Positions 26,540 through 31,913 of a stretch of DNA of 64,000 nt are shown here, one piece after another. Below the pieces are notes generated by a model. The model did not search any database. It saw only the letters and a program-made list of their open reading frames with translations, and was not told the DNA's origin. The DNA is taken from positions 2,480,001 through 2,544,000 of the forward strand of contig NZ_CP132294.1 of the NCBI RefSeq assembly GCF_030734285.1, written 5' to 3'. Within the stretch, counting starts at the first letter, position 1. Every line of letters begins with the position of its first letter. A program made the translations under genes and the position numbers. This DNA comes from Natronococcus sp. AD-5 (GTDB lineage: Archaea; Halobacteriota; Halobacteria; Halobacteriales; Natrialbaceae).

Positions 26540-26719
26540 TCACCCGGTTCGGATCCACTCGTCGACGAGTCCTCGCACGATGTAGCCGAAGACGAGGACG
26601 ACGCAGAGAACGGCGACCCACACGAGCGCTGCAAATGTCGTTTCGCTGAGCACCGCGAGCGCGACCATCCACCCGCCCGTGAGCGCCCCGTAGATCGAGG
26701 GGTCGGTGGACGCGCTCAC
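26540..26719 (-). CDS. Small two-helix membrane protein paired with the SSS symporter
   Basis: A 59-residue protein from GTG 26719. It has two hydrophobic segments, GALTGGWMVALAVLSETTFA and ALVWVAVLCVVLVFGYIVRG, and ends DEWIRTG. Its GTG overlaps the symporter TGA (GAGTGA), so it is translationally coupled. Some SSS symporters are encoded with small membrane partners (for example the YhdT/PanF pair), which suggests an accessory subunit. It has no recognised domain and is missed by length filters. Confidence 0.65.
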   Translation of the reverse strand: MSASTDPSIYGALTGGWMVALAVLSETTFAALVWVAVLCVVLVFGYIVRGLVDEWIRTG

Positions 26720-28230
26720 TCGTCCACCTCCCGGCCGCCGTCGGTGACCGAATCGTCGAGTCGCCTGATCTCGCGGTCGAGCGTGTCGAGATCGACCCCC
26801 GCATCGGTCGTTGCGGCCGCGAGCGCAGTTGCGACCGCGGACAGGCCGGTCGCGCCGACGAACGCGACGAGGAACGACGGCTCCGGAAGGACGTCCCCGG
26901 CGCCGGGAATCACGGCGAGCGCCGCGCGGGCTAGTGGGAAGAAGGCGATTCCGACGACGATGCCCGAGACGCTCGCGGCGATCGCGCCCGATCCGGTGAG
27001 TCGTTCGGTGTACAGCCCGGCGAGAAACGGGACGAAGACGGCCGCCGCGAGCAGGTCCGCCGTCAGGAACAGTTCGAGAACGCTGTAGCCCTGCACGCCG
27101 ACGACCATCGCGCCGAGCGCGACCGCGATCGTCAATCCCCGCCCGCCGATCCAGAGGGTTCGCTGCTCGACGTCGTCGAACACCCGCGCGAGGTCGGCGG
27201 TGACGACGCTCGCGATCGCGTTGAACATCGTGTCCGCGGAACTCATCACGAGCAACACGGCGAGCACGACTACGGCGAGCGTCACCCAGGTCGGGAACGC
27301 CTCCTCGAGCACCAGGAAGAACGCGACGCTCGCGGTTCCGGCCTCCGTCAGACCGAGCGCCGCGGCCGCGACCCCGAACAGCCCCGCCAGCAGGATCATC
27401 GGAATCACGACGATCGCGGCGACCCCGAAGCCGCGCCGGAGCGAGGACGTCTCGTCGGCCGCATACACGCGCTGCCACATCCCCTGGTTCAGCATGTTCG
27501 CGCCGAGGATGGCGAACGCCACGTAGGCGCCGAACTCGAGAGCGGGGCGGAAGGTCGGATCGAGCAGCGTCGCGTCGGTCGCAACGGCGGCCGCGTGGAG
27601 CTCGCCGGCGCCGCCCAGCGCGAGCAGCGCGCCGGCGAAGCTGATCGCGAGCAGCGGAAGGATGACGAGCGTCTGGATCGTATCGGTGACGATGCTAGCG
27701 ACGAGCCCGCCGTACGCCGTGTAGACGAGCGTGAACCCCCCGACGAGCAGCGCCGTCTGCCAGTGAGGGATCCCCGCGACGAGCGCGAGTGCTCCGGCGA
27801 TACCCGTCAATTCCGCGGCGAGGAAGATGAACATGTAGAAGACGGAAACCAGCAGCACGAACAGGTACATTCCGGCGCCGAAACGCGCGTAGGCGAACTC
27901 CGTCAGCGAGTGCCCCGACGGCATCACCGTCCGGATCCGTGCGCCGACCGGGACGAACAGGAGAAGGGGGACGGCGCTCCCGATCGCGTAGCCCAGAATT
28001 GCTCCGACGCCGCCGAAGGCGGCCCCGGCCTCCGCGGGACTGAAGAGGATCCACGCGCCCATCATCGAGGCGACGACGGTGGCGGTGAGCGTCCCGCGAC
28101 CGGCCGTCCCGCGAGCGCTAATGAAGTCGTCGACCGATCGGACCCGTCCCCTGGCGGCGAGCAGTCCTACGACGGTGAACGCCGCGACCGTCGCGATCGT
28201 TATCCCGAGCGCGAGCGACGACGACACCAT
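26716..28230 (-). CDS. Sodium:solute symporter (SSS family), candidate thiamine-precursor transporter
   Basis: The 504-residue protein has about 13 membrane helices. It carries SSS landmarks such as DDFISARGTAGRGTLTATVV early, GHSLTEFAYARFG, TLVYTAYGGLVASIVTDTIQ and LLVMSSADTMFNAIASVVTA, the Na2-site helix. It begins immediately after the TenA_E-type stop (28231/28230) and is followed by a coupled small membrane protein. Neighbouring pyrimidine-salvage enzymes suggest uptake of a thiamine degradation product or hydroxymethylpyrimidine. Specificity is inferred only from context. Confidence 0.88.
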   Translation of the reverse strand: MVSSSLALGITIATVAAFTVVGLLAARGRVRSVDDFISARGTAGRGTLTATVVASMMGAWILFSPAEAGAAFGGVGAILGYAIGSAVPLLLFVPVGARIRTVMPSGHSLTEFAYARFGAGMYLFVLLVSVFYMFIFLAAELTGIAGALALVAGIPHWQTALLVGGFTLVYTAYGGLVASIVTDTIQTLVILPLLAISFAGALLALGGAGELHAAAVATDATLLDPTFRPALEFGAYVAFAILGANMLNQGMWQRVYAADETSSLRRGFGVAAIVVIPMILLAGLFGVAAAALGLTEAGTASVAFFLVLEEAFPTWVTLAVVVLAVLLVMSSADTMFNAIASVVTADLARVFDDVEQRTLWIGGRGLTIAVALGAMVVGVQGYSVLELFLTADLLAAAVFVPFLAGLYTERLTGSGAIAASVSGIVVGIAFFPLARAALAVIPGAGDVLPEPSFLVAFVGATGLSAVATALAAATTDAGVDLDTLDREIRRLDDSVTDGGREVDE

Positions 28231-28989
28231 CTACGCTCCCTCCGGATCGGTCGCCTGCGGCTCGTACGCCTCGTCGAAGAACGCGACCTCGAGGTCGACC
28301 GTCCGGCGGAACAGCCGTTCGACGCGCGCCTGTCGGCGCGGCGAGCAGTCCGGCCCGACCGCGTCGAGTTGCTCGCGGAGTTCGTCGACGAACGCGACGA
28401 ACGACGGCACCGCGTGGAGGTCGATCCACTCGGCGTAGTAGAACGGCAGGTCGGCGCCGGCGCTCGGGGGCTCCGTTTCGGAATCCGCGTACTCTTCGGC
28501 GACCGCGGTCGCCCACTCCCGGTAGATCCACTCCGCGGGGACCAGCACGGCCAGCGTCTCGGCGTATCCCCCTTCGCGCGCGGCCCGGCTCAGCAGGTCG
28601 ACGAACGCCGCGGTCGTCGGCGAGTGGTCGGGATCGCGCCGCCGCGATTCGGAGACGTCTAACGCGTCGAACGACCGCTCGAAGTAGTCGTTCTCCTCGC
28701 CGGTGACCGTCTCGAGGAACTCGATCAGCGGCCGCTTCGCGTCGATACCCGGCGCCTCTCCGACGGCGAATCCGAACGTCCCGACGAGCGCGTCGAGGAA
28801 CGCGTAGTCCCGAACGAGGTACGCCGCGTAGGCCTCCTCGTCGAGGGTGCCCGCGCCCAACTCCCGCGTAAAGGGGTGAGCTACCGCGTCCGACCACGCC
28901 GGTTCCGACCTCTCGCGGAGCCAGTCGGTGAACCGCGCGTCGTCGATCTCGTCCGCGTACGCGTCGTACGTGGCGGGGACGTCGCTCAC
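28231..28989 (-). CDS. TenA family protein of the cysteine-less (TenA_E) type
   Basis: The 252-residue protein has the TenA helical fold: FTDWLRERSEPAWSDAVAHP, YAAYLVRDYAFLDALVGTFG, and PFYYAEWIDLHAVPSFVAFV near the end. Where TenA_C proteins have the nucleophilic cysteine (YPCMQGY in the neighbour) this one reads LVPAEWIYREWA, with a glutamate. That matches the TenA_E group, known for processing formylamino/aminopyrimidine breakdown products of thiamine. The GTG start overlaps the stop of the upstream tenA by four bases. Confidence 0.82.
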   Translation of the reverse strand: MSDVPATYDAYADEIDDARFTDWLRERSEPAWSDAVAHPFTRELGAGTLDEEAYAAYLVRDYAFLDALVGTFGFAVGEAPGIDAKRPLIEFLETVTGEENDYFERSFDALDVSESRRRDPDHSPTTAAFVDLLSRAAREGGYAETLAVLVPAEWIYREWATAVAEEYADSETEPPSAGADLPFYYAEWIDLHAVPSFVAFVDELREQLDAVGPDCSPRRQARVERLFRRTVDLEVAFFDEAYEPQATDPEGA

Positions 28990-29645
28990 AGCCCCCACCC
29001 CTCCTGCGTGTAGGCCATCTCCCAGAACCGGTACTCGAGCTTGGCGCTCGTCAGAAACGCTTCGCGCATCGCGTCGTGTTCGCCGGGGTAGCGCTCGCCG
29101 CACCGATCGACGAACGTCCGACACCACGCGGTCGCCTCGCGGAACTCGTCGCCGGTGTACGTCTCGATGAACGGCGTGAACTCGTGCTCCCCGTCGGCGA
29201 GCTCCGTCATACGTTCGGCGACGTCGAGGTACCCCTGCATGCACGGGTATAGCGCCGCGGCGATCTCCGCGATCGACCCCTCGTAGGCCGTCCGCACGAG
29301 GAAGCTCGTGTACGCGACGCAGGTCGGCGCCTTCTCGACCCGCTCGAGTTCGTCCGTCGAAATGCCGTAGTCGGCGGCGAACTCCCGGTGGAGGTCCAGT
29401 TCGTGGTCGAGCACCTGGTGGGCGACGCCGAGGAGGTGGGTCATCGTCTCCTCGTCGCGCGCCTTGCTGCCGGCGATCGCGAACAGCCGCGCGTAGTCGA
29501 GCAGGTAACGGTAATCCTGTTTCACCCAGTATTCGAACGCGTCGTCGTCGAGCGTCCCCTCGGCGAGTTCGACAACGAACGGGTGTTCGAACTGCGCCTC
29601 CCAAACGTGTCGGCCGTGCTCGAGGAGGTCCTCGCTGAAAGCCAT
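28986..29645 (-). CDS. tenA: TenA family aminopyrimidine aminohydrolase (TenA_C type)
   Basis: The 219-residue protein is a canonical TenA/thiaminase II. C135 in AALYPCMQGYLDVAE is at the same number as the catalytic cysteine of Bacillus TenA. YWVKQDYRYLLDYARLFAIA and the C-terminal EYRFWEMAYTQEGW with its glutamate are present. It hydrolyses aminomethylpyrimidine to hydroxymethylpyrimidine for thiamine salvage. First gene of an operon tenA_C, tenA_E, symporter, small membrane protein, with overlaps at most junctions. I looked for a TPP riboswitch core upstream and did not see one, so control is probably by protein. Confidence 0.9.
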   Translation of the reverse strand: MAFSEDLLEHGRHVWEAQFEHPFVVELAEGTLDDDAFEYWVKQDYRYLLDYARLFAIAGSKARDEETMTHLLGVAHQVLDHELDLHREFAADYGISTDELERVEKAPTCVAYTSFLVRTAYEGSIAEIAAALYPCMQGYLDVAERMTELADGEHEFTPFIETYTGDEFREATAWCRTFVDRCGERYPGEHDAMREAFLTSAKLEYRFWEMAYTQEGWGL

Positions 29646-29831
29646 CACCCTCCCTTCGGACGTGCTGAAGATATACGTGGCGAATACCACTCGATAATCA
29701 CCGTGACGCTCCGTATATCGGACGGGTTCGACGGCGTGGTACGGCGGGGGTGAGATCGCTCGAGGCCGACCCCGACCGGAGCACACACCATCACAACGCT
29801 TTTATCCCGCTCGAGATAACTCGTATCCACG

Positions 29832-29952
29832 ATGGTAGGTGTCCGCTTTACAGGGGCTCTCGCCCGCTTCTAATCCACACCTACCGCTCGCCGTGTCGAT
29901 CCACCGGCGAGCGGCGTGCGCGGACGCCCGTCCGAACTTCTGTCCGAAGTTC
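29832..29952 (+). promoter_or_regulatory. Structured 5' leader of thrS with three hairpins
   Basis: After a TATA-like TTTTATCC near 29800, transcription should begin near 29828. Three exact inverted repeats follow. The first is GGTAGGTGT (29834-29842) with ACACCTACC (29877-29885), enclosing GGGC-TCTC-GCCC at 29854-29865. The second is CCGCTCGCCG (29884-29893) with CGGCGAGCGG (29905-29914). The third is GAACTTC (29934-29940) with GAAGTTC (29946-29952). Stems 1 and 2 share two bases and so could compete. Long structured leaders are unusual in haloarchaea; a cis-regulatory or small RNA role is inferred. Confidence 0.6.
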
Positions 29953-29969
29953 CCAGATCAGTTACAGTC

Positions 29970-31913
29970 ATGTCAGAATCAGATTCACAGCAACGGATAG
30001 CGGTCGTACTGCCAGACGGGTCCGAACTCGAAGTCGACGCCGGCGCCACGGTCGAGGACTGCGCCTACGAGATCGGCCCCGGACTCGGAAGCGACACGAT
30101 CGCCGGGAAGCTCGACGGCGACCTCGTCGCAAAGGAAGAGCCCGTCTACGACGGCGCGGAACTCGAGATCGTCACGGATCAGTCCGAGGAGTACCTGCAG
30201 GTGATGCGCCACTCCGCTTCGCACTGTCTCGCCCAGGCCGTTTTCCGCCACTACGACGACGTCGACCTGGCTATCGGTCCGCCGACGGACGAGGGCTTCT
30301 ACTACGACTTCGACAACCTCGAGATCGACGAGGAGGACCTCGCGGACCTCGAGCGCGAGATCGAGGAGATCGTCGCGGAAGACTACGAGATCGAGCGCGA
30401 GGAGGTCTCGATCGAAGAGGCCGAGGAGCGCCTCGCCGACGAACCCTACAAGCTCGAGTTGCTCGAGGAGTTCGCCGACGAGTCGGACACGGTGAGCTTC
30501 TACAAACAGGGCGAGTGGGAGGACCTCTGTGCCGGCCCGCACGTCGACTCGACGGGCGAGATCGGCGTCGTCGAACTGCTCGAGATCGCCGGCGCCTACT
30601 GGCGCGGCGACGAGGAGAATCCGATGCAGACGCGCATCTACGGCACGGCCTTCGCCGAGGAGAGCGACCTCGAGGAGTTCTTAGAGCGCAAGGAGGAAGC
30701 CGAGAAGCGCGACCACCGACGGATCGGCAACGAGATGGATCTCTTCTCGATCCAGGACGTGACGGGCCCCGGCCTGCCGCTGTATCACCCCGCCGGGAAG
30801 ACGGTGCTGAAGGAACTCGAGGAGTTCGTCGAGGAGCTGAACCAGGATGCGGGCTACGACTACGTCGAGACGCCACACGTCTTCAAGACGGACCTCTGGC
30901 ACCGCTCGGGCCACTACGAGAACTACGCCGACGACATGTTCATCTTCGACGTCGGCGACGACGAGTTCGGCCTGAAGCCCATGAACTGCCCCGGTCACGC
31001 CGCGATCTTCCAGGACCACTCCTGGAGCTACCGCGACCTCCCCATTCGGTACGCCGAGAACGGGAAGGTCTACCGCAAGGAACAGCGCGGCGAGCTGTCG
31101 GGACTCTCGCGGGTCTGGGCGTTCACGATCGACGACGGCCACCTCTTCGTCCGTCCCGACCAGATCGAGGCCGAAGTCGAGGGGATCATGGACATGATCA
31201 CGGACGTGCTCGAGACGTTCGACCTCGAGTACGAGATGGCCCTCGCGACGCGGCCCGAGAAGTCCGTCGGCAGCGACGAGATCTGGGAGCGCGCCGAGGA
31301 GCAACTGGAGTCCGTCCTCGAAAAGCGGGACCTCGACTACGACCTCGAGGAGGGCGACGGCGCCTTCTACGGGCCGAAGATCGACTTCGCGTTCGAGGAC
31401 GCCATCGGCCGCTCGTGGGACGGCCCGACGGTCCAGCTCGACTTCAACATGCCCGAGCGGTTCGACCTCGACTACGTCGGGGAGGACAACGAGGAGCACG
31501 AGCCGGTGATGATCCATCGCGCGCTGTACGGCAGCTACGAGCGGTTCTTCATGATGCTCATCGAGCACTACGAGGGCCGGTTCCCGCTGTGGCTCGCCCC
31601 CGAACAGGTCCGCGTACTGCCGATCTCCGACGACAACCTGGGCTACGCCCACCGGGTCGCGAACGAGTTCGACGACTTCCGGGTCGAGGTCGACGACCGC
31701 GACAGCACGCTCGAGCGCAAGATCCGCGCGGCCCACGACGACCGCGTCCCCTACCAGATCATCGTCGGCGACAACGAGGAGGAGGCCAACAACATCTCGG
31801 TTCGGGACCGCTTCGAGGACCAGGAGTACGACGTCGAGATCGACGAGTTCAGAGCGCACCTCGAGGCCGAGCGCGAGGAGAAGCGGACGGAACCGGACTT
31901 CCTGCGGGACTGA
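29970..31913 (+). CDS. thrS: Threonyl-tRNA synthetase, bacterial-type architecture
   Basis: The 647-residue protein has an N-terminal TGS domain ([20 protein letters not shown]), the editing N2 domain with [17 protein letters not shown], and the class II core. Motif 1 lies near [17 protein letters not shown]. Motif 2 is [20 protein letters not shown]. Motif 3 is [20 protein letters not shown]. The zinc ligands include the cysteine in [14 protein letters not shown]. The C-terminal anticodon domain is complete. The editing domain is of the bacterial/eukaryal type rather than the archaeal DTD-like type, as is common in haloarchaea. It is preceded by a structured leader that may regulate it. Confidence 0.95.

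Follow-up and report, generated by a model that had tools for sequence, protein, structure and literature searches.

We identified a conserved upstream open reading frame (uORF) and two competing RNA helices in the leader of the threonyl-tRNA synthetase (ThrRS) gene, thrS, of a haloarchaeal genome of 5.17 Mb, and we consider it fairly probable that this leader works as a ribosome-sensing leader-peptide switch; its anatomy is strongly supported, and its function is predicted from sequence. All positions below refer to the 64,000-nt stretch of this genome that was analyzed (hereafter the window). The uORF is of the leaderless type, extends from ATG to TAA at positions 29832-29873 on the plus strand, and encodes the 13-residue peptide MVGVRFTGALARF (ATG GTA GGT GTC CGC TTT ACA GGG GCT CTC GCC CGC TTC TAA). 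With its Thr codon, it is the main feature that a first-pass annotation of the same DNA overlooked.

The thrS gene itself (29970-31913, plus strand) encodes a bacterial-type ThrRS with TGS, SAD, class II core, and anticodon-binding domains (Pfam), which matches TIGR00418 with 669.8 bits (cut-off 383.65) and scores under the cut-off of PRK03991. Its closest counterpart among the fetched loci is the ThrRS of Natronococcus pandeyae (93% identity). Some relatives (e.g., G029 and f3 g47) gave weak matches only, and their enzymes may be of another type. Divergent from thrS, two TenA-type (thiaminase II family) genes lie beside a sodium:solute symporter gene on the minus strand (26716-29645), possibly forming a thiamine salvage cluster.

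Conservation of the uORF was examined in 53 thrS loci that had been chosen on the ThrRS sequence alone. It precedes thrS in 52 of them, within a block conserved nearly letter for letter, and the 53rd locus, that of Natrinema versiforme, has an in-frame extended version (MAVGNAEIDEADRKPTSGSPLRFTRAFARF). As in an attenuator, a short uORF with a start, a stop, and a conserved frame thus lies upstream of the gene. A pattern search of 391 genomes of the class recovered the element in 125 of them, at about one copy per genome: it is present in nearly all Natrialbaceae (f1), in families f7 and f10, and in parts of f3, f4, and f6. No second copy was found elsewhere in the genome of the window, and the few three-mismatch matches away from thrS in other genomes were, in those that were read, chance matches.

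Several features indicate that the frame is maintained. Across 64 distinct uORF sequences (11 to 18 codons), the start, the Phe-Thr pair, and an in-frame stop are all retained, while TAA, TGA, and TAG are all used as stop codons. In all 87 distinct leaders, the uORF frame contains the first stop within 36 nt after TTTACA, compared with 0 and 7 of 87 for the other two frames; the leader collection demanded a stop within 25 codons, by which only two extended thrS forms of 30 codons were lost, and these were added by hand. Both extended forms keep RFT..ARF before the stop as well as the promoter spacing. In one leader (L083), the uORF ATG has changed to ACG and a replacement in-frame ATG is found one codon upstream. 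Among 110 leaders, the start codon has A at -3 in 97 and G at +4 in 101. These are the bases preferred at haloarchaeal hsp70 start codons, where substitutions affect expression (PMC4574771).

The only Thr codon of the uORF lies in the pair TTT ACA (Phe-Thr; 29847-29852, plus strand), which is invariant in all 53 loci and is the proposed sensor site. Both codons are rare, since in four genes of the window ACA accounts for 1 of 89 Thr codons and TTT for 3 of 73 Phe codons. There is no run of Thr codons, and one Thr in 13 residues does not amount to enrichment. The peptide itself is not strictly conserved, as codon 5 can specify Arg, Cys, Tyr, or His. Moreover, codons 2-7 show almost no variation at their third positions, and the nucleotides of the first seven codons are close to fixed, which implies that the conservation is partly one of RNA sequence rather than of the peptide. 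A synonymous-substitution test gave a modest excess in codons 8-13 and near invariance in codons 1-7; because both leave such a test uninformative, the evidence from frame, stop, and start was used instead.

A TATA box (CTTTTAT; 29799-29805, plus strand) is centered 30 nt before the uORF ATG and is compatible with a predicted transcription start near 29828. Of 110 leaders, 108 have such a TATA-like box 28-33 nt upstream of the uORF ATG. In families that lack the element, the distance was measured to the ATG of thrS itself, and 31 of 34 leaderless genes have the box 25-33 nt upstream of it. This common spacing indicates that thrS is leaderless in those families and that here the uORF takes its place. 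Judging from the predicted transcription start, the uORF would sit at the 5' end of the transcript, and a start downstream of the hairpins, the outcome that the first-pass annotation had named as fatal to its reading, is unlikely in view of the promoter spacing. Its claim of a genuine thrS leader in a lineage of mostly leaderless mRNAs is supported.

The leader contains exact inverted repeats at 29834-29842/29877-29885 (9 bp), 29884-29893/29905-29914 (10 bp), and 29934-29940/29946-29952 (7 bp), as had been described before, and bases 29884-29885 are indeed common to stems 1 and 2. Its folding energy is -58.6 kcal/mol, compared with -46.0 kcal/mol for dinucleotide shuffles (z = -3.5), and none of 200 shuffles is as stable. 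The three stems differ in their conservation. Conservation across families is seen for stem 1; stem 2 (a 10-bp hairpin; 29884-29914, plus strand) is recognizable mainly in Natrialbaceae, and stem 3 (GAACTTC/GAAGTTC; 29934-29952, plus strand) is lineage-restricted, being retained in only a part of Natrialbaceae. The first-pass annotation had taken stems 1 and 2 to be mutually exclusive. Exclusive folds do exist in this leader, but that pair was the wrong one: it is the segment 29838-29842 that takes part in two conserved helices. An embedded small RNA, which had also been considered, finds no backing, as the leader matched no Rfam family (T-box was absent even at E up to 5 and at the gathering cut-off) and what is conserved here is an ORF.

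The first of these helices corresponds to stem 1. It joins arm A (GGTAGGTGT; 29834-29842), which covers uORF codons 1-4, to arm A' (ACACCTACC; 29877-29885) directly 3' of the uORF stop. The second joins arm B (GGTGTCCGC; 29838-29846), which covers codons 3-5 and overlaps arm A by 5 nt, to arm B' (GCGGACGCC; 29920-29928), which lies between stem 2 and thrS, 41 nt before the thrS ATG, and rivals A' for the start of the uORF. All four arms are on the plus strand. Since 29838-29842 belongs to both A and B, A:A' and B:B' cannot form together; as in an attenuator, mutually exclusive helices are placed where a ribosome on the uORF could control them. A further hairpin within the uORF, right after the Thr codon (GGGC-UCUC-GCCC; 29854-29865, plus strand), is shared by the two competing folds, also appears in the consensus of the alignment, and is re-formed by other sequences elsewhere.

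Both helices covary. Among 28 distinct A:A' arm pairs, 16 double-change cells were counted, compared with 6.8 after shuffling, and the covariation score was reached by none of 500 shuffles. The way in which partners were placed (best pairing, or inspection by eye) favors pairing, but the own pairs also exceeded all 200 permutations. Alternative arms include GGTGAC/GTCACC (L069) and GTCGGTGATC/GATCACCGAC (L311). B' covaries with codon 5 (CGC/GCG, CGT/ACG, TGC/GCA, and TAC/GTA), and the own B:B' pairing amounts to 7.85 pairs against a permuted maximum of 7.76 (300 permutations). B:B' is a feature of Natrialbaceae and f10; B' is weak or missing in Natrialbaceae of the TAC type and outside Natrialbaceae and f10. 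Pairing is conserved in relatives, as the covariation analysis of thrS upstream regions suggested in the first-pass annotation has found, and the absence of conserved pairing that would have spoken against its reading is excluded. In one leader (L130), an insertion of about 70 nt with a strong inverted repeat separates the uORF from A', producing an 18-codon uORF with A' kept beyond it. In the computed folds of the window leader, forcing either helix gives an equal energy of -58.6 kcal/mol. A simulated ribosome footprint at ACA removes both helices, and one at the stop codon leaves B:B'.

These features can be combined into a model, which builds on the uORF, its invariant codon, the promoter spacing, the two covarying exclusive helices, and the cognate uORFs of pheS and a second trpS (see below). 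Transcription would begin just before 29832, and a ribosome would load on the leaderless uORF, whose 5' end (29834-29846) could pair with either A' (29877-29885) or B' (29920-29928). When Thr-tRNA(UGU) is scarce, the ribosome would pause at the single rare ACA codon and cover arms A and B, so that A' and B' would remain unpaired, the leader would stay open, and thrS would be translated. When Thr-tRNA is plentiful, the ribosome would reach the stop codon and cover A', and the freed start of the uORF would pair with B' and close the leader. The inferred elements of this model are translation of the uORF, Thr-tRNA as the signal, the direction of the response, and control at the level of thrS translation rather than of transcription or mRNA decay. 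RNA-level control, as proposed by the first-pass annotation, is probable.

With regard to the output, a bacterial-style scan of 29700-30100 revealed nothing resembling an intrinsic terminator, which makes an effect on translation or mRNA stability likelier. No conserved Shine-Dalgarno target was found in the leaders, and no Shine-Dalgarno sequence was seen upstream of the thrS ATG in the window. Among the f7 leaders (L123-L128) and some f3/f4 leaders, several lineages have GGAGGTG-like Shine-Dalgarno sequences before thrS, and Natrialbaceae are without them. These sites are partly complementary to arm A'. Masking of a Shine-Dalgarno sequence by A' is possible in f7 and a few others, but most leaders have no such site. 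One predicted fold paired the thrS start codon to GGCGUG; this pairing was not conserved and was dropped.

Several observations count against the proposed switch. The thrS uORF has a single Thr codon, and classical attenuators contain runs of cognate codons. In two genomes (L114 and L115), the Thr codon is so far downstream of arm A that a ribosome pausing at this codon would leave the arm uncovered. Sensing of Thr alone leaves the invariance of TTT unexplained. The nucleotide-level constraint on codons 2-7, the weak or missing B' in the groups named above, and the failure to find a terminator or a conserved Shine-Dalgarno target also weigh against it.

Other synthetase genes of haloarchaea were also analyzed. 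A dRNA-seq study of H. volcanii lists, in its Table 2, uORFs in long 5'-UTRs of TSS-mapped transcripts of trpS (HVO_A0127; 23 aa) and pheS (26 aa) (PMC4983044). For this reason pheS and trpS were examined, and the number of genes examined is small. A pheS uORF ending in or near GFGFFF was found in 27 of 30 haloarchaeal loci (L183-L212, including L205 from G000). Differences within GFGFF fall at the first, second, and third codon positions in 25, 13, and 189 cases, respectively, and this third-position excess is a clear coding signature. Phe makes up 13.6% of the residues of the pheS uORFs. The pI of 5.9 listed for the H. volcanii pheS uORF in that table is at odds with the basic GFGFFF peptides read here. 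Before the second trpS (trpS2; L244 from G000, L263-L269, L271-L273, and L324-L326), most of the 11 leaders read have a WRW(R/W) uORF, in chromosomal as well as plasmid copies. In the loci tested, segment 2, which follows the TGG codons, can pair either with segment 1 before them or with a third segment located 57-67 nt further on (usually 58), as in a bacterial attenuator. Cognate codons at the regulatory position, as in bacterial attenuators, are accordingly present in the pheS and trpS2 leaders. Haloferax mediterranei and H. larsenii have a 23-aa CWRW uORF before a plasmid trpS (masses 2703 and 2728), which fits the tabulated H. volcanii trpS uORF in its length and in its mass near 2743 (PMC4983044).

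For valS, Val-containing uORFs were detected (L282-L284 and L286) that end in FVGAP in Natrialbaceae or, in L286, read MSVGIAVVRV and have a TATA-like box upstream, and valS probably has a cognate-codon uORF as well. As negative controls, the tyrS and ileS upstream regions were leaderless and had no cognate uORF, and none was recognized upstream of the primary trpS or leuS. A short conserved uORF (MERYR../MESYR..) without Leu codons is located near leuS in L289-L291. This kind of anatomy is found before several synthetase genes within a single class of Archaea, with cognate codons in each (for thrS, one Thr codon). It appears rather likely that haloarchaea steer thrS, pheS, the second trpS, and probably valS by cognate-codon leader peptides and exclusive RNA folds, with leaderless uORFs and a translational output. 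If this is confirmed, the ribosome on a leaderless uORF would serve archaea as a sensor of aminoacyl-tRNA, and some of the uORFs already reported in H. volcanii would gain a function.

The main rival to a leader-peptide switch is autoregulation, in which ThrRS would act as a repressor by binding to its own leader RNA, as it does at the E. coli operator, the uORF being incidental or serving to keep the RNA open. In its favor, the enzyme is bacterial-type and has TGS, SAD, and anticodon-binding domains, and the unpaired UUUACA is invariant, synonymous positions included, as a protein-bound motif would be. However, a by-eye comparison with the three tRNA-Thr genes of the genome revealed no conserved copy of the anticodon loops (UUNGUAA/CUUGUAA) in the leader, which speaks against the autoregulation by ThrRS suggested in the first-pass annotation, and the UGGUA of AUGGUAGG is gone in the AUGGCAGG, AUGCUAGG, and AUGGUUGG leaders. 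Binding would also leave the conserved frame, the shifting start codons, and the parallel uORFs of pheS and trpS2 unexplained, and we regard it as unlikely. The same low probability is assigned to a uORF that acts constitutively, as a translational damper or as a ribosome loader with reinitiation, and that fixes the ThrRS level without sensing Thr-tRNA. The lone, unenriched Thr codon would agree with this, and a 5'-terminal start codon in a -3A/+4G context is expected to be efficient in ribosome loading (PMC4574771), but neither the invariant ACA and the two covarying exclusive helices nor the cognate codons of the pheS and trpS2 uORFs would then be accounted for.

Two other explanations are less probable still. 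If the arms, the UUUACA loop, and the hairpin formed an aptamer or a protein site, the open frame would be a by-product and the near invariance of the first seven codons at the nucleotide level would follow; the use of three stop codons, the frame-keeping indels, the replaced start codon, and the frame-extended versions make this very unlikely. Least credible is a transcription factor that binds the inverted repeat GGTAGGTG..CACCTACC as DNA, for which its location directly downstream of the promoter might speak: the arms are replaced by other complementary sequences (such as those of L069 and L311), and their spacing varies, up to the hairpin inserted in L130.

The favored reading, a leader-peptide switch, has a well-known counterpart, as leader-peptide attenuation is a textbook mechanism in bacteria. 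To our knowledge, there is no established case in Archaea, and the open-access papers searched contained no earlier description of this leader and no report of attenuation or leader peptides in archaea. Our findings suggest that archaea may use this type of control too. The uORFs of H. volcanii are similar in that they are haloarchaeal, lie in trpS and pheS leaders, and come from dRNA-seq, whereas the section of Table 2 in which they appear gives length, pI, and mass only, with no cognate codons, alternative folds, or thrS entry in that section (PMC4983044). The T-box riboswitch shares the synthetase leader, the cognate codon, and the alternative folds; in contrast, the thrS leader gave no Rfam T-box match, no terminator was found in it, and its codon lies in an open frame. 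The E. coli thrS operator controls the same kind of gene through a structured leader, here too probably at the level of translation, but the haloarchaeal leader has no conserved mimic of the tRNA-Thr anticodon and contains a conserved uORF, which the E. coli operator presumably lacks. Bacterial attenuators such as E. coli trp and pheST likewise combine a short uORF, in which the amino acid of the controlled gene is encoded, with exclusive helices overlapping or following it, and in bacteria they also target a synthetase (pheST). The haloarchaeal leaders closest to them are those of pheS (GFGFFF) and trpS2 (WRWR, with segments 1:2 versus 2:3). The haloarchaeal systems differ in being archaeal, in having a leaderless-type uORF at the mRNA 5' end, and, for thrS, in the single Thr codon and in that no intrinsic terminator was found. 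The working principle is thus known from bacterial attenuators, and what would be new is its appearance in the archaeal domain, in a form with a leaderless uORF and, as far as the scan of the thrS leader shows, no terminator.
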